The notes beneath the pieces are model-generated. The model did no database searches, was not told the origin of the DNA, and saw only the letters and a list, made by a program, of their open reading frames with translations. The position numbers were made by a program, and so were the translations under genes. A stretch of DNA of 64,000 nucleotides, taken from assembly GCA_016929395.1 (NCBI GenBank), contig JAFGIX010000032.1, positions 1-64,000 of the forward strand. Reading direction: 5' to 3'. The DNA comes from Candidatus Zymogenus saltonus. Its GTDB lineage: Bacteria > Desulfobacterota > Zymogenia > Zymogenales > Zymogenaceae. This document shows, piece by piece, positions 24,144 to 49,070 of the stretch (the first letter of the stretch is position 1; every line of letters starts with the position of its first letter).

Positions 24144-24170
24144 TTTATAACAAAAAAAAAAGCGGTACAA
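24144..24170 (-). promoter_or_regulatory. Probable promoter for the oppD-oppF operon
   Basis: On the minus strand TTGTAC (24170-24165) and TATAAA (24149-24144) are spaced by 15 bases, about 25 bases before the oppD start. The spacer is a T-rich run. The spacing is short, so confidence is moderate. Confidence 0.4.
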
Positions 24171-24299: not shown

Positions 24300-24731
24300 A
24301 TGAGCGATTTAGTAAGGTTCGGCGTTTCCCTTGAAAGGGGCCTCCTCAGTGATTTTGACAAGTATATAAATGAAAAGGGGTATCAGAACCGCTCTGAGGC
24401 GATCAGGGACCTGATCAGGGAAAAGCTTGTTGAGAAGGAATGGGAAGCTTCGGATGAAGGCTATAATGAGGGGAGGATGGCGGTCCTCACGATAGTCTAT
24501 GATCACCATCAAGCCGATCTGACAAAAAACCTCACCGACATCCAGCACAAAAGTCACGGAGTCGTCTACTCGACGCTTCATATCCATATCGATCACGACA
24601 ACTGCCTCGAGATATTGGTTCTGAAGGGTTCCGTGGAGAGTATAAAACAGTTAGGGGACAAGATCATCAGCACCAGGGGGGTGAGGCACGGGAAGATGAT
24701 TTTCACCACAACCGGGAAGGGGCTAAAGTAG
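24300..24731 (+). CDS. nikR: NikR nickel-responsive transcriptional regulator
   Basis: 143 residues. The N-terminal ribbon-helix-helix (VRFGVSLERGLLSDFDKYINEKGYQNRSEAIRDLIREKL) is followed by the ACT-like metal domain with YSTLHIHIDHDNCLEILVLKG, which carries the high-affinity nickel ligands (one His about 76-78, His-X-His and Cys). With Ni(II) it should bind an inverted repeat; such a repeat lies just upstream, implying autoregulation and control of the divergent ATPase pair. CbiM and CbiN-like genes downstream fit a metal-uptake locus. The ribosome-binding site is weak. Confidence 0.92.
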   Translation: MSDLVRFGVSLERGLLSDFDKYINEKGYQNRSEAIRDLIREKLVEKEWEASDEGYNEGRMAVLTIVYDHHQADLTKNLTDIQHKSHGVVYSTLHIHIDHDNCLEILVLKGSVESIKQLGDKIISTRGVRHGKMIFTTTGKGLK

Positions 24732-24840
24732 GGGGTGGCAGGCAATTTGTTTGGGGGGAGGGGGGTGTCGTCAATTAGTGGGGAGGGGGGGGGAAGGTTG
24801 GAATTGGGAATGTAAGGGATGGGGGGGATAGACAAAAAGG
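24732..24840 (+). repeat. G-tract-rich spacer with G-quadruplex potential
   Basis: Dozens of G residues in runs of 3 to 9 (for example near 24762-24775 and 24779-24790), all on the sense strand between nikR and cbiM. Four or more GGGG runs lie close together, enough for a G-quadruplex in DNA or RNA. Confidence 0.7.
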
Positions 24841-24945
24841 GGAGGTCGTTGATATCGAGTTGATTCTTCCCAAGTTTACAGCGGGTAAGGTTTTCGTATC
24901 CGATCGATGTCAATATAACTTGTAAATTAAAAATGGAGGTAACTG

Positions 24946-25620
24946 ATGCACATTCCAGATGGATTTTTATCAACGGGGGTGGCTGCAGCATCCTACGGCG
25001 TTTCCGCCGTTACGGGGGCGATCGCCGTTAGAAACGCGAAGAAGAAATTCAGCGAGAGGTTGATCCCCTTGGCCGGGGTTACCGCGGCTTTCATCTTCGC
25101 CGCGCAGATGCTCAATTTCCCGATAGGATTCGGTACCAGCGGACATTTCCTGGGGGCCCTTTTGGCCTGTGTCCTTTTAGGCCCGTCGATGGGATTTTGG
25201 ATAATGACCCTGGTTCTGCTCGTTCAGGCACTCTTGTTCGCCGACGGCGGAATCACCGCTCTGGGGGCGAACGTCCTCAATATGGGGCTGATCGGTGGTG
25301 TGATTAGCTACTACGTCTATATCGCGGCCGTGAAAATGCTTCCGAAGAATAAGGGATCGCTTTTTGTTATCACGTTTCTCGTGGCCTGGTTCTCGGTCCT
25401 CCTGGCCTCGGCCGTCTGCTCTCTGGAGCTGGCGGTTTCCGGGACTATACCGTTTAAGCTCGTTTTCCCGTCGATGGTGGGGTTCCACGCGATTATTGGC
25501 GTCGGGGAAGGTCTGATTACGGCCTCGGTTCTCACCTATGTCCTCGCGGCCAGGCCGGACCTTGTCTACGCGGTGTCGGATGACCTGAAGATAGAAGATA
25601 TGGTAAAGGGGGTGGCTTAA
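24946..25620 (+). CDS. cbiM: CbiM/NikM family ECF substrate-specific membrane component
   Basis: 224 residues starting MHIPDGFLSTGVAAASYG; the MHIPDG N terminus, whose His-2 helps bind the metal, is diagnostic for CbiM/NikM. About six membrane helices follow, with FGTSGHFLGALLACVLLGP and GGITALGANVLNMG typical of the family. It takes up Co(II) or Ni(II). The nearby nikR favours nickel. GGAGG precedes ATG 24946. The CbiN-like gene starts 1 base after its stop. CbiQ and CbiO genes are not present in the following 1 kb. Confidence 0.92.
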   Translation: MHIPDGFLSTGVAAASYGVSAVTGAIAVRNAKKKFSERLIPLAGVTAAFIFAAQMLNFPIGFGTSGHFLGALLACVLLGPSMGFWIMTLVLLVQALLFADGGITALGANVLNMGLIGGVISYYVYIAAVKMLPKNKGSLFVITFLVAWFSVLLASAVCSLELAVSGTIPFKLVFPSMVGFHAIIGVGEGLITASVLTYVLAARPDLVYAVSDDLKIEDMVKGVA

Positions 25621-40069: not shown

Positions 40070-40690
40070 ATGCTTAAAGAACATATTCCGAACTCGATGA
40101 TGCACATTACCCTCCACACGATTCAGGATATAATCGGAGAGAACGGGCTGAACGCGCTGCTGAATCATGCCAGGCTCACAAAGTACAGGAATAACTTCCC
40201 TCCGAATAACGAAAAAAACGAGGTGCCGATAGAGGAATTCAACGCGGTTCTCGGAAGTGTAATCGATATATTCGGCGAGAAGGGGTCGAGGCCCATACTA
40301 TACAACGCGGGGCGAAGGGGATTTCAGATCACTCTGGAGAAGAATCCCGCAATGGTGGGATTTGTGGGCTTGGGACTCAAGCTGTTGTCTAAGAGGAAGA
40401 GGATCGAAAAAGTATTTAAGGTAGGGGCCGAGGGAACCAACAAGGTCTTCGGGGAGAACCAGAGGTTCTACGTGAGCGATGAGGGATTTGTCTGTGAGCT
40501 TTTCGACTGCTATTGGTGCAAGGGGCTCAAAAGCGAGGGGCCTATATGTTACGGCGAAATCGGGCTGGATGCCGAAGTGGCCAAGTGGGCCACGGGCGAT
40601 GAGCACGAGGTTAAAGAGGTGTTGTGCAGGGCCAAAGGGGACGACGTCTGCAAGTTTGTAATCTCTTTCGAGCCCAAAAAGGAGAGTTAG
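40070..40690 (+). CDS. V4R-domain protein, paralog d
   Basis: 206 residues with AGGAGGTGAGGT before the ATG. It shares the start (NSMMHITLHTIQDIIGENGLNALLNHARL) and middle (KNPAMVGFVGLGLKLLSKRKR) with paralogs a to c, most like c, and has DCYWCKG, EGPICY, LCRAKGDDVCKF at the C terminus. It is separated from the tandem array by the transketolase operon, yet again sits directly after a permease gene. Alanine dehydrogenase begins 29 bases later. The ligand is unknown. Confidence 0.8.
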   Translation: MLKEHIPNSMMHITLHTIQDIIGENGLNALLNHARLTKYRNNFPPNNEKNEVPIEEFNAVLGSVIDIFGEKGSRPILYNAGRRGFQITLEKNPAMVGFVGLGLKLLSKRKRIEKVFKVGAEGTNKVFGENQRFYVSDEGFVCELFDCYWCKGLKSEGPICYGEIGLDAEVAKWATGDEHEVKEVLCRAKGDDVCKFVISFEPKKES

Positions 40691-40719
40691 AGCTTAGAGG
40701 TAAATTTAAGGAGTTTAAG

Positions 40720-41826
40720 ATGAAGATAGGTGTTCCGACCGAAATAAAGGCGGAAGAGAACAGGGTTGCCCTGACACCGGCAGGCGCCGCCGCCTTTGTG
40801 AGCCACGGGCACAATGTTTTTATCCAAGAAGGGGCGGGTTTGGGCAGCGGCCTTACGGACGAGGAATATAAAGCCGCGGGGGCCAAGATACTCCCCGACA
40901 AGGAGGCGGTCTGGGCCGAAGTGGATATGATAATCAAGGTGAAGGAGCCGTTGGGGCCTGAGTTCGGCCTCATGGAAAAGCAGATCCTCTTTACATATCT
41001 TCACCTGGCGGCGGACGAGGAGCTTACGAAAAAGCTCCTCAAGACAAACATCGTTGGAATCGCATACGAGACGATCCAGCTTACGGACAAATCGCTCCCC
41101 CTTCTGGCCCCAATGAGCGAGGTCGCCGGGAGACTCTCCGTCCAGATGGGCGCCCGCTGTCTCGAGGCGATAAGCGGCGGCAGCGGAATATTGATCTCCG
41201 GGGTGTCCGGGGTGCCGCCGGCAAAGGTCGTTATCCTGGGCGCCGGGATAGCGGGTTCCAACGCCTGCTTTGTCGCCGTCGGTATGGGGGCGAGGGTCAC
41301 TATTCTTGATGTCAATCCGGTAAAGCTGAGATATATCCACGACGTTATGGGCGGGCATGTGGTTACGGTCATGTCGAACCGGGCAAATATAGAGGAGGAG
41401 GTGCTTTCCGCGGACCTCGTCATAGGATCGATTTTGATTCCGGGGGCCAAGGCGCCGAAGCTTATCACAAGGGATATGGTCTCCAAGATGAAGAAGGGAT
41501 CGGCAATAGTCGACATAGCTGTGGATCAGGGGGGGTGCGCGGAGACGACAAAGCCCACGACCCATAGCGATCCGATCTATATCGTCGACGACGTTGTCCA
41601 CTACGCCGTGGCAAACATGCCCGGAGCCGTTCCCAGGACATCCACCTTCGCCCTGACAAACGCGACCCTGTCGTATGCGCTGGATATCGCCGATAAGGGC
41701 GTGGAAAAGGCGGTAAGGGATGACAATTCCCTCAAGAAGGGCGTGAACGTCATGGATGGAAATGTGACGTGCAGTGCCGTGGCCGATGCGTTCGATATGG
41801 AGTGTGTCGATTTAGATTTTTCTTGA
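40720..41826 (+). CDS. ald: Alanine dehydrogenase
   Basis: 368 residues from ATG 40720, with AAGGAG 8 bases upstream; the frame extends upstream into the V4R gene but this part is not conserved. Motifs: MKIGVPTEIKAEENRVALTP, catalytic Lys in VKEPLGPE, His in FTYLHLA, NAD fold VVILGAGIAGSNA, then VDIAVDQGGCAETTKPT. It oxidises L-alanine to pyruvate and ammonia with NAD+, or works in reverse. Next to class III aminotransferases it could regenerate pyruvate as amino acceptor and release NADH and ammonium. That pairing is known for taurine and beta-alanine catabolism; here it is inferred. Confidence 0.95.
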   Translation: MKIGVPTEIKAEENRVALTPAGAAAFVSHGHNVFIQEGAGLGSGLTDEEYKAAGAKILPDKEAVWAEVDMIIKVKEPLGPEFGLMEKQILFTYLHLAADEELTKKLLKTNIVGIAYETIQLTDKSLPLLAPMSEVAGRLSVQMGARCLEAISGGSGILISGVSGVPPAKVVILGAGIAGSNACFVAVGMGARVTILDVNPVKLRYIHDVMGGHVVTVMSNRANIEEEVLSADLVIGSILIPGAKAPKLITRDMVSKMKKGSAIVDIAVDQGGCAETTKPTTHSDPIYIVDDVVHYAVANMPGAVPRTSTFALTNATLSYALDIADKGVEKAVRDDNSLKKGVNVMDGNVTCSAVADAFDMECVDLDFS

Positions 41827-41939
41827 TTTATTAGCCGGTTTCCAATATAATAACACTTTAGTCTAATCGTGATGGGGCAAGTGTAATTTTATTGGAGTTG
41901 TGAAATCCCGTGCAGAGTTTGTGGTGATGCAAAGAGCTT

Positions 41940-41992
41940 GGGCAATTTCGGGGGTGAGTGGGGGAGGAGGGGAGAGGGTGAGTGGGGGATTA
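41940..41992 (+). repeat. G-rich repeat downstream of ald
   Basis: Two copies of GGTGAGTGGGGGA with G-rich sequence between them, on the sense strand 3' of ald. It fits the G-rich trailer pattern of the window. Confidence 0.6.
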
Positions 41993-42095
41993 GAAAATAA
42001 GATCGATTCAATGATTGGAATGAATTGCATAGATCGGTATCTGATAGTTGAGTCAAGTTTAGTACCATAGAAGTAACTTAAGGGGAGTCTTTTCA

Positions 42096-43052
42096 ATGCT
42101 CAACACCGTAGCCAAGATAAAGTCGACTTTGGACGAATATGTGGTCGGACACGATGACGTAAAGGAGGGGATACTCCTTGCCCTGATAGCCAGGGAGCAC
42201 GTATATATCGAGGGTGCCCCCGGAACGGCAAAGACGATGCTTGCGGAGCTTGCCGCAAAGGCCGCAAACCTCCAGTTCTATTTCTACCAGTTTCACCGGG
42301 ACACGAGGCTCTCGGAGCTTATCGGTGAATATATCATATCGAGGGAAGAGACGACTCAAAAATTGGAATCGGGAAACGGCAAGGGAGAGCTGATAAGGCA
42401 GCAGCTCCTTCCGGGAGGAATATTGACCGCCCAGATGGTGGTCCTCGACGACATCACCAGGGCGCCCGGGGAGGCCCTCAATATCCTGCTGAGGCTTCTT
42501 AACGAGAGGGAGTATCAGGGGATCAAACTGCCGCTTCTGACCGCTATTGCTACAAGCAACCCAACCCAGGACGATTACTACAACGAGCCCCTCGACCTCG
42601 CCAACCTCGACAGGTTTGCAATCCAGCTCAGATCCCAGGGACTCCTGACGCGGGGAAACTGGGACGAGGCGCTGTCGGTATTGGATTACTACGTAGACCA
42701 CATCTTCGATAAGGACTCCATAAAGGGATTCGAGGCGGAGCTCTTTGAAAAGCCCATCGACTATCTCTTGGACGTAGAAGTGCCCCAGAAGGTCAGAAAG
42801 AGGCTGATGAAATTCCTCAGTAAGCTAATCGATGATTACCACCTCAACGAAACGAACTCCCTCCTGACCGACAGGACGTTTTTGGTGAAGGCCGTAAGGA
42901 TCCTGAAGGCCAAGGCGATCCTCGAGGGGAGAAAAGAGGTAAGCCCAGGCGACCTCTCCGTCCTGAAATATATGACAACCTTCCGCGTGCCGGAAGAGAT
43001 AGCCGAGCGGATCGAGGAGATACTCGAAAATCTCGACGAAAAAAAAAAGTAG
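42096..43052 (+). CDS. MoxR-family AAA+ ATPase
   Basis: 318 residues in the zero frame. Walker A is GAPGTAKTML (about residues 37-46). The Walker B segment reads MVVLDDITRAPGE, with Asp where most members have Glu. Sensor and arginine-finger regions are ATSNPTQDDYYNEPLDLANLDRF, then a helical C-terminal domain with a RavA-like layout. MoxR ATPases act as chaperones or insert metals together with VWA-domain partners. The gene ends in GAA AAA AAA AAG TAG; the A-AAA-AAG heptamer before the stop allows a -1 shift into the VWA frame (see 43039-43216). AAGGGGAG precedes ATG 42096. Confidence 0.9.
   Translation: MLNTVAKIKSTLDEYVVGHDDVKEGILLALIAREHVYIEGAPGTAKTMLAELAAKAANLQFYFYQFHRDTRLSELIGEYIISREETTQKLESGNGKGELIRQQLLPGGILTAQMVVLDDITRAPGEALNILLRLLNEREYQGIKLPLLTAIATSNPTQDDYYNEPLDLANLDRFAIQLRSQGLLTRGNWDEALSVLDYYVDHIFDKDSIKGFEAELFEKPIDYLLDVEVPQKVRKRLMKFLSKLIDDYHLNETNSLLTDRTFLVKAVRILKAKAILEGRKEVSPGDLSVLKYMTTFRVPEEIAERIEEILENLDEKKK
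43039..43052 (+). other. Candidate -1 frameshift site (A10 tract, A-AAA-AAG before TAG)
   Basis: Ten A residues (43039-43048) followed by G; read in the MoxR frame they give A AAA AAG (43043-43049) directly before the TAG (43050-43052). This is the slippery heptamer known from dnaX. In the -1 frame translation continues without a stop to the end of the VWA gene at 44002. GAGGAG at 43014-43019 resembles a ribosome-binding site but is 24 bases upstream, farther than usual for a stimulator. I see no strong hairpin downstream. Confidence 0.6.
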
Positions 43053-43216
43053 ATGAGCCGGAGCAAGAGGAATCGCAGCAGCCGGTAGAGGAGGAGAGCA
43101 GGACCCAGGACAGCCAGGAGGGGAATCAGGAGCCGGCGGAGCTTACCGACAAGGACTTCGAGAGATTCCCGGACGAATCGTTTATCGTCAAAGACCTTCT
43201 GCCCGCCCTGGAGAAG
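43049..43216 (+). other. In-frame acidic linker between MoxR and VWA frames
   Basis: 56 codons with no stop in the VWA frame, starting VDEPEQEESQQPVEEES and ending in a helix FIVKDLLPALEK. It is rich in Glu, Gln and Asp and has codon use like the flanking genes. No in-frame ATG, GTG or TTG with a ribosome-binding site lies in it. Either it is translated after a -1 shift, or it is the start of the VWA gene with an unseen start. Confidence 0.6.
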
Positions 43217-44002
43217 ATGTCCGATGACGTTCGGGACAGGGTGGAGGAGAACACCAATAAGGAGACTCTGAGGGACGTTCGCCCTATACTGAAGGTCATC
43301 GAGGGAAACATCGTACAGAAGACACAGGACCTTATGAAGGACTACGGGGGATCGCCGAGGAGCTGGGCGCGCCTCGAAGACTTCTCCCAATTCGAAGATA
43401 TAGATCCCGTTGAATCCTCCATATGGTTGGAACAGTTGAGTCCCACGCTGCCCAGGGCGCTTCTTAGGAAGAGAAAACTTAAAGGCGGCGCACTGGCGGT
43501 AATCAGGGACGTCAGCTCATCCATGACCGGAACGAGGGCCCAGTGGTCGTCGATGCTGATTCTGGGGCTTGTCAGGATGGCCAGGAGGAGAAGGATGAAG
43601 CTGGGTTACATCGAGTTCAACCACCAGTCCACAAAATTCACCAAGAGTCAACTCTTCTTTAACAGGTCATATAACAAGATCGGAGATATGGCGGCCAAGT
43701 GTCTCTGCAGCGGATTTACCAACTACCAGCTTCCCCTTATGGACGCCATCAGGGAGTTCAAGAGCGTAAACGATAATATAAAGCACGTGGTCTTCATCAC
43801 CGACGGCAGACCGACCGAAGGAGACAGGGAGATCACACGGGAGATAGAGCTGGCGTCAAGGGACGATATCGCGGTCCACTCCATATATATCGGCAAGAAG
43901 GACTCGCCGGAGATATTGAGGACGCTCTCAGTGAAAACGGGGGGGACCCACTTTCAGGTGGGGCCGGACGACTTCGGCAAGTTGAAACTCAAGACCCTGT
44001 GA
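43217..44002 (+). CDS. VWA-domain protein, partner of MoxR ATPase
   Basis: 261 residues if started at ATG 43217, whose GGAG lies only 3 bases upstream. The C-terminal VWA domain has the MIDAS motif DVSSSM (DxSxS, about 95-100), a conserved Thr in the region CSGFTNYQLPLMDA, and FITDGRPTEGDRE. VWA proteins of this type bind the MoxR hexamer and coordinate Mg2+. The domain order AAA, acidic linker, VWA resulting from a frameshift would equal that of BchD/ChlD subunits. The first in-frame codon after the MoxR stop suggests that 43217 is not the only start. Confidence 0.85.
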   Translation: MSDDVRDRVEENTNKETLRDVRPILKVIEGNIVQKTQDLMKDYGGSPRSWARLEDFSQFEDIDPVESSIWLEQLSPTLPRALLRKRKLKGGALAVIRDVSSSMTGTRAQWSSMLILGLVRMARRRRMKLGYIEFNHQSTKFTKSQLFFNRSYNKIGDMAAKCLCSGFTNYQLPLMDAIREFKSVNDNIKHVVFITDGRPTEGDREITREIELASRDDIAVHSIYIGKKDSPEILRTLSVKTGGTHFQVGPDDFGKLKLKTL

Positions 44003-44400
44003 GGGGCCGGTAAAGAATTTAACGGGTGGTTGGCACAGATGTTAATTGGGGGGTGGTGAGTGTAATCGTTGAACGGGAGGTTGGCGCAAATGTTAGTGTG
44101 GGGGTCGGGTATATATTCTTGGAGGGGGGTCGGGCAAAAATTTTACACAGGGTGGGAAGGGCAGGAATATTGGAGTGGAATGGCGGGCGGGAATTCTTAG
44201 TTGGGGTATGATCGGGAGTTTTGATTGCCGATATTATTTTAGGATGATGAGTGAGGATTAAATATTGTCAGGAGTTGTCGGGCGGGAAAGGGGAATTGAT
44301 GTTTCTTAGATTCAGGCAGGGTGGAGCGGGTCGCGGAGGTGATTCGCAAGGTTGGCGGGTGTTCGATTAGATTTGACCGTAGTAAATGAAGAGGTGCTAT
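44003..44400 (+). repeat. G-rich spacer with an imperfect repeat
   Basis: 398 bases, G-rich on the sense strand. Two imperfect units share AACGGG.GGTTGGC.CA.ATGTTA (about 44018-44054 and 44069-44107). G runs of 4 to 6 are frequent. No gene is seen; the promoter for the dehydratase operon should lie at the right end. Confidence 0.55.
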
Positions 44401-45546
44401 ATGGGGAGAGACGAGGTTCTAAAGACGTTCGAGGGTGTTGTCAGTGATCCCTTGGGATCGATAAAGGAATACAAGGAGAAGGAGAAAAAGCCGGTCGTCG
44501 GCTATTTCTGTACATACACCCCTGAGGAGATGATTCACGCCGCAGGCGCAATCCCCTTCAGGATCATCGGCGAGAATAAGGCCGTAGAGAGGGCCGACGG
44601 TCACCTGCAGAGCTACTCGTGCTCGCTTATCCGGACGGGGCTCGACTTGGCGCTTCTGGGAAAGCTCGACTTTGTCGACGGCACGGTCTTTCCCCACACC
44701 TGCGATTCGATCCAGCGCCTCTCCGACATATGGAAGGTAAACGCGAAAATCGACTACCATGCAGACGTCGTCCTTCCCGTTAAGCTCAACACCGAGAGCG
44801 CAAAGAAGTATCTGATCGAGGAGCTCGGGGCTTTCAGAAAGTCCCTCGATGAGCACTTCTCGACGACCGTCTCCGATAAAAAGCTGAGAGAAAGCATAAA
44901 AGTATATAACGAGATGAGGGACAACCTCTCCCGTCTCTACAGGATCAAGAACGAGGCCCCGAAATCGATAACGGCGAGGGACGTGAACAATTGCGTCAAG
45001 GCGGCGATGTACATGCCGGTTGAGGAACACAATCGCTTGATGGCGGAGCTTCTTGCCGACCTCGATAAGGGGGCAAAAGACGAGGATGCCCCCCGCGTGA
45101 TATTTTCGGGAAACCTCTGCGTCTTTCCGGAGATACTCGATTTTGTCGAGAAGGCGGGCGCCTATGTGGTGGGAGACGACATGTGTACCGGCTACCGCTA
45201 CTTCGTGACTAATGTCGATGAAAAGAAGGGGGACGATCTCGGCCCAATAGAGGCTATCGCCGACAGGATTATAAAGAGGCCGATCTGCGCGGCGAAGCAC
45301 AATCCCGATTTTGACAGGGGGGAGTTCCTAAAAAGCCTGGCCAGAGAGGTAAAGGCCGAGGGGGTGGTATTCCTCTTCTTGAAATTCTGCGATCCCCATT
45401 CCTTCGATTATCCCCGTCTGATGAAGTCTTTGGATGAGGTTAAGATACCCCATATCCTGATAGAGACCGAGATGGACAACCCCGCGTTGGGGCAGCTTAG
45501 GACGAGGATAGAGGCCTTTGTCGAGATGATTCGAGATAACAGATAG
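44401..45546 (+). CDS. 2-hydroxyacyl-CoA dehydratase/benzoyl-CoA reductase-like subunit 1
   Basis: 381 residues from ATG 44401, preferred because GAGGTG lies 7 bases upstream; ATG 44386 is less likely. The protein has the HgdB/BcrC family start FCTYTPEEMIHAAGAIPFRI, a cysteine in YSCSLIRTGLD, the middle CDSIQRLSDIWK and the C-terminal FLFLKFCDPHSFDYPRL and ILIETEMDN. Each subunit of such heterodimers holds a [4Fe-4S] cluster through cysteines and binds an acyl-CoA. It pairs with the next gene, 9 bases downstream. The ATP-dependent activator (HgdC-type) is not in the window. Confidence 0.85.
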   Translation: MGRDEVLKTFEGVVSDPLGSIKEYKEKEKKPVVGYFCTYTPEEMIHAAGAIPFRIIGENKAVERADGHLQSYSCSLIRTGLDLALLGKLDFVDGTVFPHTCDSIQRLSDIWKVNAKIDYHADVVLPVKLNTESAKKYLIEELGAFRKSLDEHFSTTVSDKKLRESIKVYNEMRDNLSRLYRIKNEAPKSITARDVNNCVKAAMYMPVEEHNRLMAELLADLDKGAKDEDAPRVIFSGNLCVFPEILDFVEKAGAYVVGDDMCTGYRYFVTNVDEKKGDDLGPIEAIADRIIKRPICAAKHNPDFDRGEFLKSLAREVKAEGVVFLFLKFCDPHSFDYPRLMKSLDEVKIPHILIETEMDNPALGQLRTRIEAFVEMIRDNR

Positions 45547-45555
45547 GAGGAAGCC

Positions 45556-46812
45556 GTGGCTGAAGATAAAAAGGTAAAAGATCCCGAGAGGGAAAAGAGG
45601 AAATTCAAAACGGCGAAAGATATGCGTGAGCTTATGACCGCCTATTACACGGAGGCGAAGACAGCCGAGATAGACGGCTCCAAGAAGATCGCCTGGATAA
45701 CGAGCGGCGGGCCTGTGGAGCCGCTTCACGCCATGGACGTTATCCCCATATACCCGGAAAACCACAGCGCCATGCTGGGGGCTTCGAAGATGAGCATCGA
45801 GATGTGCGAGGTGGCCGAAGAGATGGGTTATTCGAGGGACCTCTGCTCATATTTCAGGGGAGATATAGGGAGCGCCGTGACGAAGAAAAGCCCCATCCCC
45901 GGGGCGCTGCCGAAACCCGATTTCCTTGTGGCGGCAAACAACATATGCGGCACGGTGACGAAATGGTACGAGATTCTGTCGAGATTTTTCGATGTGCCCC
46001 TCTTTCTTCTCGACACACCCTTCATCCACGGCAAGATAACCAAGCAAAGCTCCGAGTACGTCGAGGCCCAGATGAGGGAGTTGATCTCCTTTCTGGAGGT
46101 GAACTGCGGCAAGAAGTTCGACCACGACCGCTTTAAGGAGGTGGCGGAGACGGCCCTCGAGGGCCTCTACCTCTGGGAGGATATCCTGGCCACCTGCGAA
46201 AACAGGCCCGCGCCAATGAGCTGTTTCGACGCATTCTTTTTTATCGCACCGATAGTGACCCTCAGGGGAACCAAGGAGTGCAACGAGTTTTATAGAAAGC
46301 TATTGGCCGAGCTCAAGCAGAGGGTGGAGGATAATATAGCCGCGGTCCCTAACGAAAAGATCAGGCTCCTCTGGGACAACATCCCGATATGGACGCGTCT
46401 CAGAGACCTCTCCGAGCTTTTCGCCTCCCACGGGGCGTGCCTTGTTGCGGATACCTATACAAACGCCTGGGCCAGGACGAAGATCGAGGGGGACGATCCG
46501 GTAAAGGGCCTTGGAAACGCCCTGCATAAGGCGTATCTCAACATAGATTTTCAGCAGATGATCAAAGAGGTGAAGGGGCTGATCAAGAGGTTTTCCGCCG
46601 ACGGCTTTGTCATCCACTCCAACCGGTCCTGCAAGCCCTATTCCCTGGGGCAGTTCGACATGGCGAGGACCATCCAGGAGGAGTTGGACATCCCGACCAT
46701 AATCATCGAGGCCGACCAGACGGACGACAGGGTCTTTTCAGAGGAGCAGACCAAGACCAGGGTCGAGGCGTTTATCGAGACGGTCACCGAAAAGATTAAA
46801 AAGGCCTTGTGA
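45556..46812 (+). CDS. 2-hydroxyacyl-CoA dehydratase/benzoyl-CoA reductase-like subunit 2
   Basis: 418 residues from GTG 45556 with AGGAGG in front. The HgdB/BcrB-type features are AWITSGGPVEPLHAMDVIPIYPENHSAML, SRDLCSYFRGDIG with its Cys, VAANNICGTVTKW, and the C-terminal GFVIHSNRSCKPYSLGQFDMARTIQEELDIPTIIIEADQTDDR. Together with subunit 1 it should form a heterodimer with two FeS clusters, dehydrating a 2-hydroxyacyl-CoA or reducing an aromatic acyl-CoA. The real substrate is not known. It is followed, after a 47-bp tandem repeat, by moaD-like and aldehyde oxidoreductase genes. Confidence 0.87.
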   Translation: MAEDKKVKDPEREKRKFKTAKDMRELMTAYYTEAKTAEIDGSKKIAWITSGGPVEPLHAMDVIPIYPENHSAMLGASKMSIEMCEVAEEMGYSRDLCSYFRGDIGSAVTKKSPIPGALPKPDFLVAANNICGTVTKWYEILSRFFDVPLFLLDTPFIHGKITKQSSEYVEAQMRELISFLEVNCGKKFDHDRFKEVAETALEGLYLWEDILATCENRPAPMSCFDAFFFIAPIVTLRGTKECNEFYRKLLAELKQRVEDNIAAVPNEKIRLLWDNIPIWTRLRDLSELFASHGACLVADTYTNAWARTKIEGDDPVKGLGNALHKAYLNIDFQQMIKEVKGLIKRFSADGFVIHSNRSCKPYSLGQFDMARTIQEELDIPTIIIEADQTDDRVFSEEQTKTRVEAFIETVTEKIKKAL

Positions 46813-46828
46813 ATCTATTGATTATGAT

Positions 46829-46922
46829 CGATCACTCCTCGGCGTGAAGTTTTCGAGGGGATCGAATATATCGGTCGATCATTTCTCGGTGTGAAGCTTT
46901 CGATGGAATCGAATATATTTGT
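46829..46922 (+). repeat. 47-bp tandem repeat, two copies
   Basis: Units 46829-46875 and 46876-46922 differ at 8 of 47 positions. They fill almost all of the gap between the dehydratase subunit and the moaD-like gene. Each carries GAATATAT near its end, so a duplicated promoter or operator is possible. Confidence 0.8.
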
Positions 46923-46934
46923 CAAAGCTTATCG

Positions 46935-47174
46935 ATGATAAACGTCAGGCTTTTTGGCGGCCTAAAGCAGCACACGGGCGGAGCAAAGAGGATCGAGCTT
47001 GCGTTCGAGGACGTCAAGAGCGTCGAAGATATTCTGCATACCATGAGAATTCCAAAGGGAGAGGTGGGCCAGGTCCTAATCAACGGCACTCCCATGGAAT
47101 CTTCCCGAACTTTCAATGATACCGTTTCAGATGGCGATGAGGTGGATTTCTATCCTATCTCCGCAGGGGGATAG
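46935..47174 (+). CDS. MoaD/ThiS-like ubiquitin-fold protein
   Basis: 79 residues with the beta-grasp pattern (INVRLFGGLKQHTGG...) and ending PISAGG; the C-terminal Gly-Gly is the site that is adenylated and thiocarboxylated to carry sulfur. It lies 6 bases before an aldehyde:ferredoxin oxidoreductase gene, an arrangement typical of tungsten-cofactor enzymes, so a role in their pterin cofactor synthesis is likely. ATG 46935 has no clear ribosome-binding site. Confidence 0.85.
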   Translation: MINVRLFGGLKQHTGGAKRIELAFEDVKSVEDILHTMRIPKGEVGQVLINGTPMESSRTFNDTVSDGDEVDFYPISAGG

Positions 47175-47180
47175 ACGTTT

Positions 47181-49070
47181 ATGAACGGGGGATACTTGAA
47201 TAAAGTATTGCGGGTAAATCTTACCGAAGAAACAAGCAGAGTGGAGAGTCTCGAAGACGGCTTCATCAGGAAATACCTCGGCGGGAGGAGCCTCGCCCTT
47301 TATTACCTATTGAGGGAGACAGCCCCGGGCCTCGATCCCTTATCCGAAGAGATCCCGATCATTTTCGCGACCGGGGCGCTCACCGGAAACTCCGGCCCCG
47401 CAATACCGAGGTATACCGTCGTCACGAAGTCCCCGCTGACGGGGGGCCTCGGGGCCTCGGAGGCGGGCGGCTTCTGGGGGCCGGAGCTCAAGTTTGCCGG
47501 GTACGACGCCCTGATAGTGGAGGGTAGGGCGAAAAAGCCGGTCTATATTTGGATTAAGGACGACGCCGTCGAGATAAAAGACGCGGGGAAAGTCTGGGGC
47601 CTCGGGACATACGAGGCACAGAATCTGATAAAGGAGGAGGTGGGGGAAAAGAGGGCCAGGATCGCGATTATCGGACCGGCCGGGGAAAACCTGGTCAGGT
47701 TCGCCAACGTCGGAAACGAGCTCGGCCACTACAACGGCAGGAACGGCCTGGGCGCCGTCATGGGGAGCAAGAATCTGAAGGCTGTGGCGGTAAGAGGGTC
47801 GGGAAAGCTAATGGTCTTCGACGAGAAGAGGCTAAAAGGTATCGCCCGGGAGTTCGCGAAGAGTTTCAAGGAAAACAGCCTCGGAAACACCCTCTTTGAA
47901 TACGGCACTACTGCGACTGTGGAGGCCCTCGCCGGATTCGGGGCGCTCCCCACCCGGAACTGGGATACCGGGGTCTTTGAGGGGGTCGAGAACCTCTTTG
48001 CCGACGTATACAACGAGAAGCTGTTGATCGGGAGGAAGGGGTGTTACGCCTGTCCTATCAGATGCAAGAGGGTCGTCGATGTAAAGGACGAGAGGTTCTC
48101 GGTGAATTCCGAATACGGCGGGCCGGAGTACGAGACTATCGGGGCGCTGGGGTCGAACATGGGGATAGACGACCTGAACGTGGTCGCCAAGGGAAACGAG
48201 CTTGCCAATCACTACGGGCTTGACACAATCTCCCTGGGCATGACAATCTCCTTTGCGGCGAAGTGCTTCGAGGAGGGGATTATTACGGAGGAGGACACGG
48301 GGGGTCTCAGGCTCAGGTTCGGGGACGCCGATTCGTTCCTGAAGGCGATAGAGCTTATAGCGAAAAGGGAGGGCTTCGGCGACCTGATGGCGGAGGGCAC
48401 AGCAAGGATGGCGGAGAAGATAGGGAGAGGCTCGGAGAAGTTTACACTCACCGTCAAGGGGCAGGAGGCCCCAATGCACGACCCGAGGACAAAAATCAGC
48501 GTCGGAATCGCCTACGCCACATCGGACATAGGGATCGACCACATGGTCGCCCCCCACGACGGATTTTTTACCGATTCCGAGTCTTGGTCGTTTAATAACG
48601 CAAGGAGGCTGGGAATCAAAGAGCCGACGGGGCTTTTCGATATGACAAAGACGAAGGTGAAAAACTTCGCCATTTTAAACCGCTATTATAGAATGATAGA
48701 CGTGATAGGGTGCTGCTGCTTCGGCTTCGCCCCCAGAGGCCCGATGGATATCGAAACGTTTCTGGATATGATAAACGCGATAACGGGATGGGATACCGAC
48801 TTCGAGGAGCTTCTGAAGTGCGGCGAGAGGTCGCTAACGATGTCGAGGATATACAACTTCAGGGAGGGATTCACCGAAAAAGACGATACCCTCCCCAAGA
48901 AGTTTTACGAGAAGATGGCCGATGGACCTTACAAGGGGAAGCTTGCCATCGACGGGGACAAGTTCGCCGAGCTGGTAAGGTTGTTTTACGAGGATCTCAA
49001 CTGGGAGGGGGAGACGGGCCGTCCGACGAAGGAGGCGGTTGAGTCCCTCGGCCTCTCCGATTTGATCTGA
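47181..49070 (+). CDS. aor: Aldehyde:ferredoxin oxidoreductase (AOR family)
   Basis: 629 residues. The N-terminal beta-rich domain starts MNGGYLNKVLRVNLTEETSRVE and contains YLGGRSLALYYLLRE, TGALTGNSGPAIPRYTVVTKSPLTGG and SEAGGFWGPELKFAGYDALIVEGRA (pterin binding). The cluster motif CYACPIRCKR (about residues 289-298) and a later Cys in DVIGCCCFGFAP hold a [4Fe-4S] cluster. Tungsten-bis-pterin enzymes of this family oxidise aldehydes to acids and reduce ferredoxin in the cytoplasm. It is coupled to the MoaD-like gene. The particular aldehyde is unknown. GGGGGA precedes ATG 47181. Confidence 0.92.
   Translation: MNGGYLNKVLRVNLTEETSRVESLEDGFIRKYLGGRSLALYYLLRETAPGLDPLSEEIPIIFATGALTGNSGPAIPRYTVVTKSPLTGGLGASEAGGFWGPELKFAGYDALIVEGRAKKPVYIWIKDDAVEIKDAGKVWGLGTYEAQNLIKEEVGEKRARIAIIGPAGENLVRFANVGNELGHYNGRNGLGAVMGSKNLKAVAVRGSGKLMVFDEKRLKGIAREFAKSFKENSLGNTLFEYGTTATVEALAGFGALPTRNWDTGVFEGVENLFADVYNEKLLIGRKGCYACPIRCKRVVDVKDERFSVNSEYGGPEYETIGALGSNMGIDDLNVVAKGNELANHYGLDTISLGMTISFAAKCFEEGIITEEDTGGLRLRFGDADSFLKAIELIAKREGFGDLMAEGTARMAEKIGRGSEKFTLTVKGQEAPMHDPRTKISVGIAYATSDIGIDHMVAPHDGFFTDSESWSFNNARRLGIKEPTGLFDMTKTKVKNFAILNRYYRMIDVIGCCCFGFAPRGPMDIETFLDMINAITGWDTDFEELLKCGERSLTMSRIYNFREGFTEKDDTLPKKFYEKMADGPYKGKLAIDGDKFAELVRLFYEDLNWEGETGRPTKEAVESLGLSDLI

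Follow-up and report, generated by a model that had tools for sequence, protein, structure and literature searches.

A long A run between the AAA and VWA parts of a MoxR-type gene as a probable site of RNA-polymerase slippage

To our knowledge, few conserved cellular genes, as opposed to genes of transposons or phages, rely on slippage by RNA polymerase, and dnaX is the standard example. The dnaX gene of Thermus thermophilus carries a run of nine A, encodes the long form of its product and has stops in both off-frames (PMC5009743). Bacterial RNA polymerase slips efficiently on A runs of at least nine (PMC5009743, PMC1088944), and the homopolymer threshold for transcriptional slippage has been placed at about 8-9 or more (PMC3711429, PMC1088944). 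In tssM, slippage reaches 15-25% (PMC4256274). A direction of shifting that is constant among orthologs points to ribosomal shifting, and a variable one to transcriptional slippage (PMC3711429, section 10). At the protein level, the RavA-ViaA system (PMC10585395) was used here as an analogue for MoxR-VWA systems.

We analysed a comparable gene in a stretch of 64,000 nt from Candidatus Zymogenus saltonus, the whole of which is called the window below (Table 1). The frame opened by ATG 42096 ends GAC GAA AAA AAA AAG TAG, and the -1 frame is open from 43049 (GTA GAT GAG CCG...) to a TGA at 44000-44002; with one extra A in the run the two become a single ORF of 635 codons. In the VWA frame, the first possible start codon (ATG, GTG or TTG) is ATG 43217, located 56 codons past the run with GGAG 3 nt before it, and a GTG follows in the same frame 24 nt after this ATG. 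On re-reading of the sequence, the frame details given in the earlier note (the A10 run, the heptamer, the TAG, the open -1 frame and ATG 43217) were all correct. Pfam matches across the locus are bpMoxR (2.4e-19), AAA_5 (1.3e-18) and VWA (3.8e-8).

Table 1 Features of the moxR-vwa locus and its downstream neighbours in the window
Feature	Position	Strand	Basis
Probable Shine-Dalgarno GGGGAG of the moxR-like gene	42082..42087	+	8 nt 5' of ATG 42096; inferred from sequence
MoxR-type AAA+ ORF, 318 aa, short product (unslipped mRNA)	42096..43052	+	bpMoxR, AAA_5, AAA_lid_8
Walker A GAPGTAKT of the AAA+ ORF	42213-42236	+	Sequence
A10 run, conserved candidate slip site, end of the last AAA-lid helix	43039..43048	+	Sequence; A9-A11 in 63/63 family loci
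A-AAA-AAG in the AAA frame, a heptamer at which ribosomes might slip by -1	43043..43049	+	Sequence; not conserved as such
TAG, stop of the unshifted frame directly behind the run	43050..43052	+	Sequence
TGA, +1-frame stop; with the TAG closes both non-VWA frames within 8 nt of the run	43054..43056	+	Stop distances 1 and 5 nt
Acidic linker followed by the VWA domain, both in the -1 frame; would form the C-terminal half of the ~635-aa fusion	43049..44002	+	Sequence; Pfam VWA; linker dN/dS
MIDAS-type metal-site motif D-V-S-S-S in the VWA domain	43508..43522	+	Sequence; D-x-S-x-S also in the family consensus
2-hydroxyglutaryl-CoA dehydratase D-component-like (HGD-D-like) gene, downstream	44386..45546	+	Pfam PF06050; synteny in 4/4 Zymogenia
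Second HGD-D-like gene, kept too	45556..46812	+	Pfam; synteny
Aldehyde ferredoxin oxidoreductase (AFOR) gene, kept too	47181..49070	+	Pfam; synteny

Readable junctions were available from 63 loci, comprising this genome and three others of the class Zymogenia, three Entotheonella, three of another class, one more, and 52 of a 58-genome phylum. A run of A is present at the border between the AAA part and the linker in all of them (A9 in 7, A10 in 39 and A11 in 17), and in the protein alignment the runs sit at an equivalent place behind the last AAA-lid helix, despite differing G+C content, phase and flanks; the other A runs in these genes are all 8 nt or shorter. All four Zymogenia genomes carry the gene with the VWA part outside the AAA frame, and their runs with the next base read A10-G, A9-G, A10-C and A10-G. 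The family member of Entotheonella (three genomes) is a single ORF of ~638 codons, single-ORF members also occur in three genomes of another class and in one further genome, and the gene was found in 54 of the 58 genomes of the further phylum, mostly split. Outside Zymogenia, the family was not found among 395 genomes of the window's phylum (Desulfobacterota). Two wider samples of 386 genomes each were searched, of which the first revealed the other lineages and the second added none.

Two further loci deserve mention. One Entotheonella genome has a second MoxR-VWA copy (L015, G099:C1:1543227-1545107), which lies ~18 kb from its candidate slippage gene, is 47% identical to the window's AAA part and is fused, with a GC-rich junction and no A run. 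L015 is the only fused member that has no run, a naturally locked fusion, and slippage is therefore not needed for every copy. In L074, four N's stand directly after the A11 run, representing an assembly gap or a masked stretch.

With the encoded amino acids and the codon use of the respective gene taken into account, a run of at least 9 has a probability of 0.003-0.07 in most GC-rich members, and of 0.003-0.03 in those richest in G+C, such as L011 and L012 of Entotheonella, L026, and L002 and L005 of Zymogenia; in AT-rich members, codon use by itself would yield a run of 9 with a probability of 0.4-0.8. The run encodes Lys-Lys-Lys, and selection at the protein level may explain part of its conservation. 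In the window, eight overlapping A/T 9-mers were observed vs 1.8 expected. Four other runs of at least 9 (A or T, 9-10 nt; at 24152, 26141, 60392 and 60515) are intergenic or lie at extreme gene ends, and that at 43039 is the only A/T run of this length inside a conserved gene. Since the run is present in all 63 family loci, the A10 run of the window is neither chance nor a read error. An assembly or homopolymer error in what is truly an ordinary single-ORF fusion might be suspected from MAG data, from the error-prone nature of homopolymers and from the existence of fused relatives. However, the -1 offset recurs in 44 separate assemblies whose A10 and A11 runs differ in phase, which refutes sequencing error as a family-wide explanation and makes it extremely improbable at this locus.

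Relative to the AAA frame, the VWA frame is at -1 in 44 loci, where one extra A is needed, at +1 in four, and in frame in 15; in these 15 the fusion is the encoded product and the short form would come from slipping. All split A10/A11 loci need the -1 direction, and all four +1 loci have A9. The latter could be homopolymer errors, the contig of G001 having 5x coverage and the gene of G805 being otherwise damaged. On the tree of the 63 loci, the encoded offset changed at least eight times, four of these changes being on A9 tips, or four times without the A9 tips. The fused clade of the 58-genome phylum has A9, A10 or A11, yet it is always in frame; the encoded frame is therefore not a random outcome and probably decides which product predominates. 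Across the family as a whole, the run is what is kept, rather than the encoded frame. Phase variation, in which the length of the DNA run would differ between cells and toggle the fusion, is suggested by the mutability of A10 runs, by the observed lengths of 9-11 and by some close relatives that are one A apart. Against it stand the stability of the offset within clades (13/13 A11 loci in one, and 12/13 in each of two others), the frame that the fused clade kept through its changes of length and the occurrence of the gene in 54/58 genomes of one phylum, and we regard it as very unlikely.

Stops lie close behind the run in every case. Both non-VWA frames close within 47 nt past the run in 63/63 loci, and two stops as near as those in the window are found at 0.3% of positions in the window gene. 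Off-frame stops are nearer than elsewhere in the same genes (Fisher P ~2e-5, combined over 12 lineages that we delimited ourselves), and the stop in the frame that is irrelevant to -1 ribosomal shifting is weakly nearer than chance (P 0.06). Stop proximity thus supports recoding firmly and its transcriptional variant mildly, because the stop of the irrelevant frame taken alone gives P 0.06.

In the VWA frame, the first 50-60 codons past the run have dN/dS values of ~0.03-0.3 in the pairs where the ratio is computable. For the linkers of the window and G001, dN is 0.17 and dS is 1.72 over the first 50 codons, all of them upstream of ATG 43217. These values indicate purifying selection, in the VWA frame, on the linker that directly follows the run. 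The same region bears on whether the locus makes two separate proteins, with the AAA protein ending at the TAG and the VWA protein starting independently, either by coupled re-initiation or at ATG 43217. Re-initiation near a stop codon is common in bacteria, and ATG 43217 has its GGAG 3 nt upstream. However, in one ortholog (L004 of G002) the VWA frame contains neither ATG nor GTG nor TTG ahead of the VWA domain, and L059, L064 and L071 have no VWA-frame start codon for 345-392 nt. Moreover, purifying selection acts in the VWA frame on the linker ahead of 43217, the gene is one ORF in 15 relatives, and the conserved A run would be left without explanation. Two separate proteins are accordingly a very improbable arrangement, and a start of the VWA protein at 43217 was rejected on the selection upstream of it and on the lack of a matching start in G002 and G003. 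In the AlphaFold2 prediction for the fused Entotheonella protein (mean pLDDT 76, pTM 0.50), the run falls at the end of helix 299-311 and is followed by a low-confidence linker, 312-379. Given the run in 63/63 loci, the near off-frame stops, the selected linker and an ortholog that has no start codon for the VWA part, recoding of some kind at the A run is very likely from sequence comparison.

We propose that RNA polymerase slips on the A10 run, which would generate a mixed mRNA population. An mRNA with 10 A (or 9, 12 or 13) would stop just past the run and give a MoxR-type AAA+ protein of ~318 aa, and translation of an mRNA with 11 A (or 8 or 14) would continue across the acidic linker and the VWA domain, giving an AAA-linker-VWA protein of ~635 aa. 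In other lineages, where the genome encodes the long form, slipping would yield the short one, as in T. thermophilus dnaX. Both products would presumably join in AAA+ rings of mixed composition, with the metal-binding VWA arm on only part of the subunits, a picture modelled on RavA/ViaA, CbbQ/CbbO or ChlI/ChlD. Two proteins made from one gene by slippage of RNA polymerase on the A run is the best explanation of the locus, and in our judgement a quite probable one.

The main competitor is programmed -1 ribosomal frameshifting at A-AAA-AAG, or sliding of the ribosome on poly-A, on a faithfully transcribed mRNA. This locus and many split loci have the heptamer in frame, -1 is the direction needed in 44/44 split A10/A11 loci, and a -1 shift in the fused loci would yield the short form. 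Ribosomal shifting is also known in the chlD/Mg-chelatase family (PMC3711429, PMC9227772). If the +1 loci are set aside, the frames expected from one inserted A are identical to those expected from a -1 shift of the ribosome. However, seven bases suffice for ribosomal shifting, yet 63/63 loci keep 9-11, and the shortest run in the family, A9, has the homopolymer length of a transcriptional slip site. The base after the run varies, so that the heptamer of G002 reads A-AAA-AAC; the four A9 loci would require +1, and a -1 shift in G001 hits an immediate AAG TAG stop. Neither an SD-like element upstream of the run nor a stem-loop downstream of it is conserved family-wide; low z scores for folding are confined to scattered loci and a few clades. 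In the L029-L031 clade, the 60 nt past the run fold more stably than shuffled sequences (z ~-1 to -3), which may reflect a clade-specific stimulator or chance. Because the runs measure 9-11, because phase and next base vary, because both polarities occur and because no stimulator is conserved, we infer that the shift takes place in transcription, which is clearly favoured, and consider ribosomal shifting unlikely, if still the strongest of the competing explanations.

These comparisons change several points of the earlier note. Its proposal of two products from one gene, a 318-aa AAA protein and a fusion of ~635 aa, agrees with orthologs that keep the run and an open second frame and with the existence of fused ORFs, but slippage of RNA polymerase fits better than -1 ribosomal frameshifting as the mechanism, and in 15 loci the fusion is directly encoded. 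The heptamer A-AAA-AAG was not found as a conserved element, and a long run of A9-A11 with varying next base and phase is kept instead. Conservation of the immediate 0-frame stop, expected together with that of the slippery run and the open second frame, is not universal, and in L005 this stop comes 25 nt on.

By family, the protein is RavA/MoxR-like rather than a Mg/Co chelatase, as judged from sequence matches and a predicted fold. Its AAA part matches bpMoxR, AAA_5, AAA_3 and AAA_lid_8, all above the Pfam cut-off, and among solved structures E. coli RavA and 2r44, a MoxR-type ATPase, are the nearest, both by sequence and by the fold of the Entotheonella AlphaFold2 model. The Pfam Mg_chelatase (ChlI) family gave no match, the VWA half reached 21.8 bits against TIGR02442 with its cut-off of 779, and no gene for an H/CobN-like subunit was found among the neighbours scanned. 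Membership in the chelatase D/I family was thus rejected for want of a ChlI/ChlD match. The description of the products as I-like and D-like subunits holds as an analogy of layout (AAA, acidic linker, VWA, in two products) and fails as a family assignment. By analogy with RavA-ViaA and other MoxR-VWA pairs, a mixed ring, some of whose AAA+ subunits bear the VWA part, might remodel or load a client.

In Zymogenia, the gene order of window positions 40624-49070 is kept, with an alanine dehydrogenase gene, moxR-vwa, two HGD-D-like genes and the AFOR gene, possibly forming a cluster for amino-acid fermentation. It is conceivable that the HGD-D-like and AFOR products are metalloenzyme clients. As a clue to the client, however, these operon partners were rejected, the adjacency of two HGD-D genes and AFOR being restricted to Zymogenia. 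In the 58-genome phylum, it is a solitary gene flanked by convergent ones, which are mltG-like, proB-like and gyrA-like as read by eye from translations. Elsewhere in the window (24300-25620), a NikR-like regulator is followed by a CbiM-like transporter component, which from their translations are probable nickel/cobalt uptake genes.

Within the open-access part of the literature, our searches returned nothing on MoxR with transcriptional slippage, and those combining MoxR, VWA domain and frameshift returned, by titles and abstracts, papers on other subjects only. MoxR and VWA go unmentioned in a 2013 survey (PMC3711429) and in part of a 2016 review. On balance, we lean towards regarding the MoxR-VWA family as an undescribed and anciently conserved transcriptional-slippage gene that occurs in several lineages and is near-universal in one phylum. 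Its ring subunits would be set by the A9-A11 run instead of the encoded frame, with lineages drifting between short-encoded and long-encoded states while both products are kept. If this is true, it would add a second widely conserved cellular slippage gene, again an AAA+ machine, with an encoded frame that flipped several times, and whether the frame or the run is selected would become directly testable. It would also explain the annotation as two genes in some species and as a single fusion in others, and would give a handle on MoxR-VWA stoichiometry.

Compared with T. thermophilus dnaX, whose tau and gamma forms arise by transcriptional slippage on A9, the MoxR-VWA gene likewise has 9-10 A in a cellular AAA+ gene with near stops in both off-frames, and its short and long forms share the ATPase part. 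As in dnaX, the genome encodes the long form in Entotheonella and at 12 other loci, and slipping there would cut it short. The two genes are unrelated, however, and the MoxR-VWA gene mostly encodes the short form, which slipping would extend, with a polarity that changes between lineages. The chlD genes of Mg/Co chelatases (PMC3711429, PMC9227772) similarly give a small AAA protein and a larger one from one gene with an A-rich slip site, and ChlD shares the order AAA, acidic linker, VWA. In contrast, the 7-nt A-AAA-AAR site, the downstream RNA structure and ribosomal shifting are chelatase features, and the MoxR-VWA protein does not belong to the ChlI/ChlD family, with no H/CobN-like gene among the neighbours scanned. 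RavA-ViaA is also an AAA+ protein with a VWA partner, and RavA and 2r44 are the nearest solved relatives; however, RavA and ViaA are two genes with no known recoding, and the extra domains of RavA are absent from the MoxR-VWA protein. The AAA part has its strongest Pfam match (2.4e-19) in the bpMoxR or MoxR-vWA-beta-propeller ternary systems (PF20030), which also combine MoxR with VWA, but no beta-propeller gene was found among the scanned neighbours, and here the VWA part is fused or out of frame within one gene. Finally, tssM of Citrobacter and Yersinia (PMC4256274) resembles the MoxR-VWA gene in having a poly-A run, no SD element or structure, and long and short forms. It is an unrelated secretion gene with its run in single species, whereas the MoxR-VWA run is kept across phyla.
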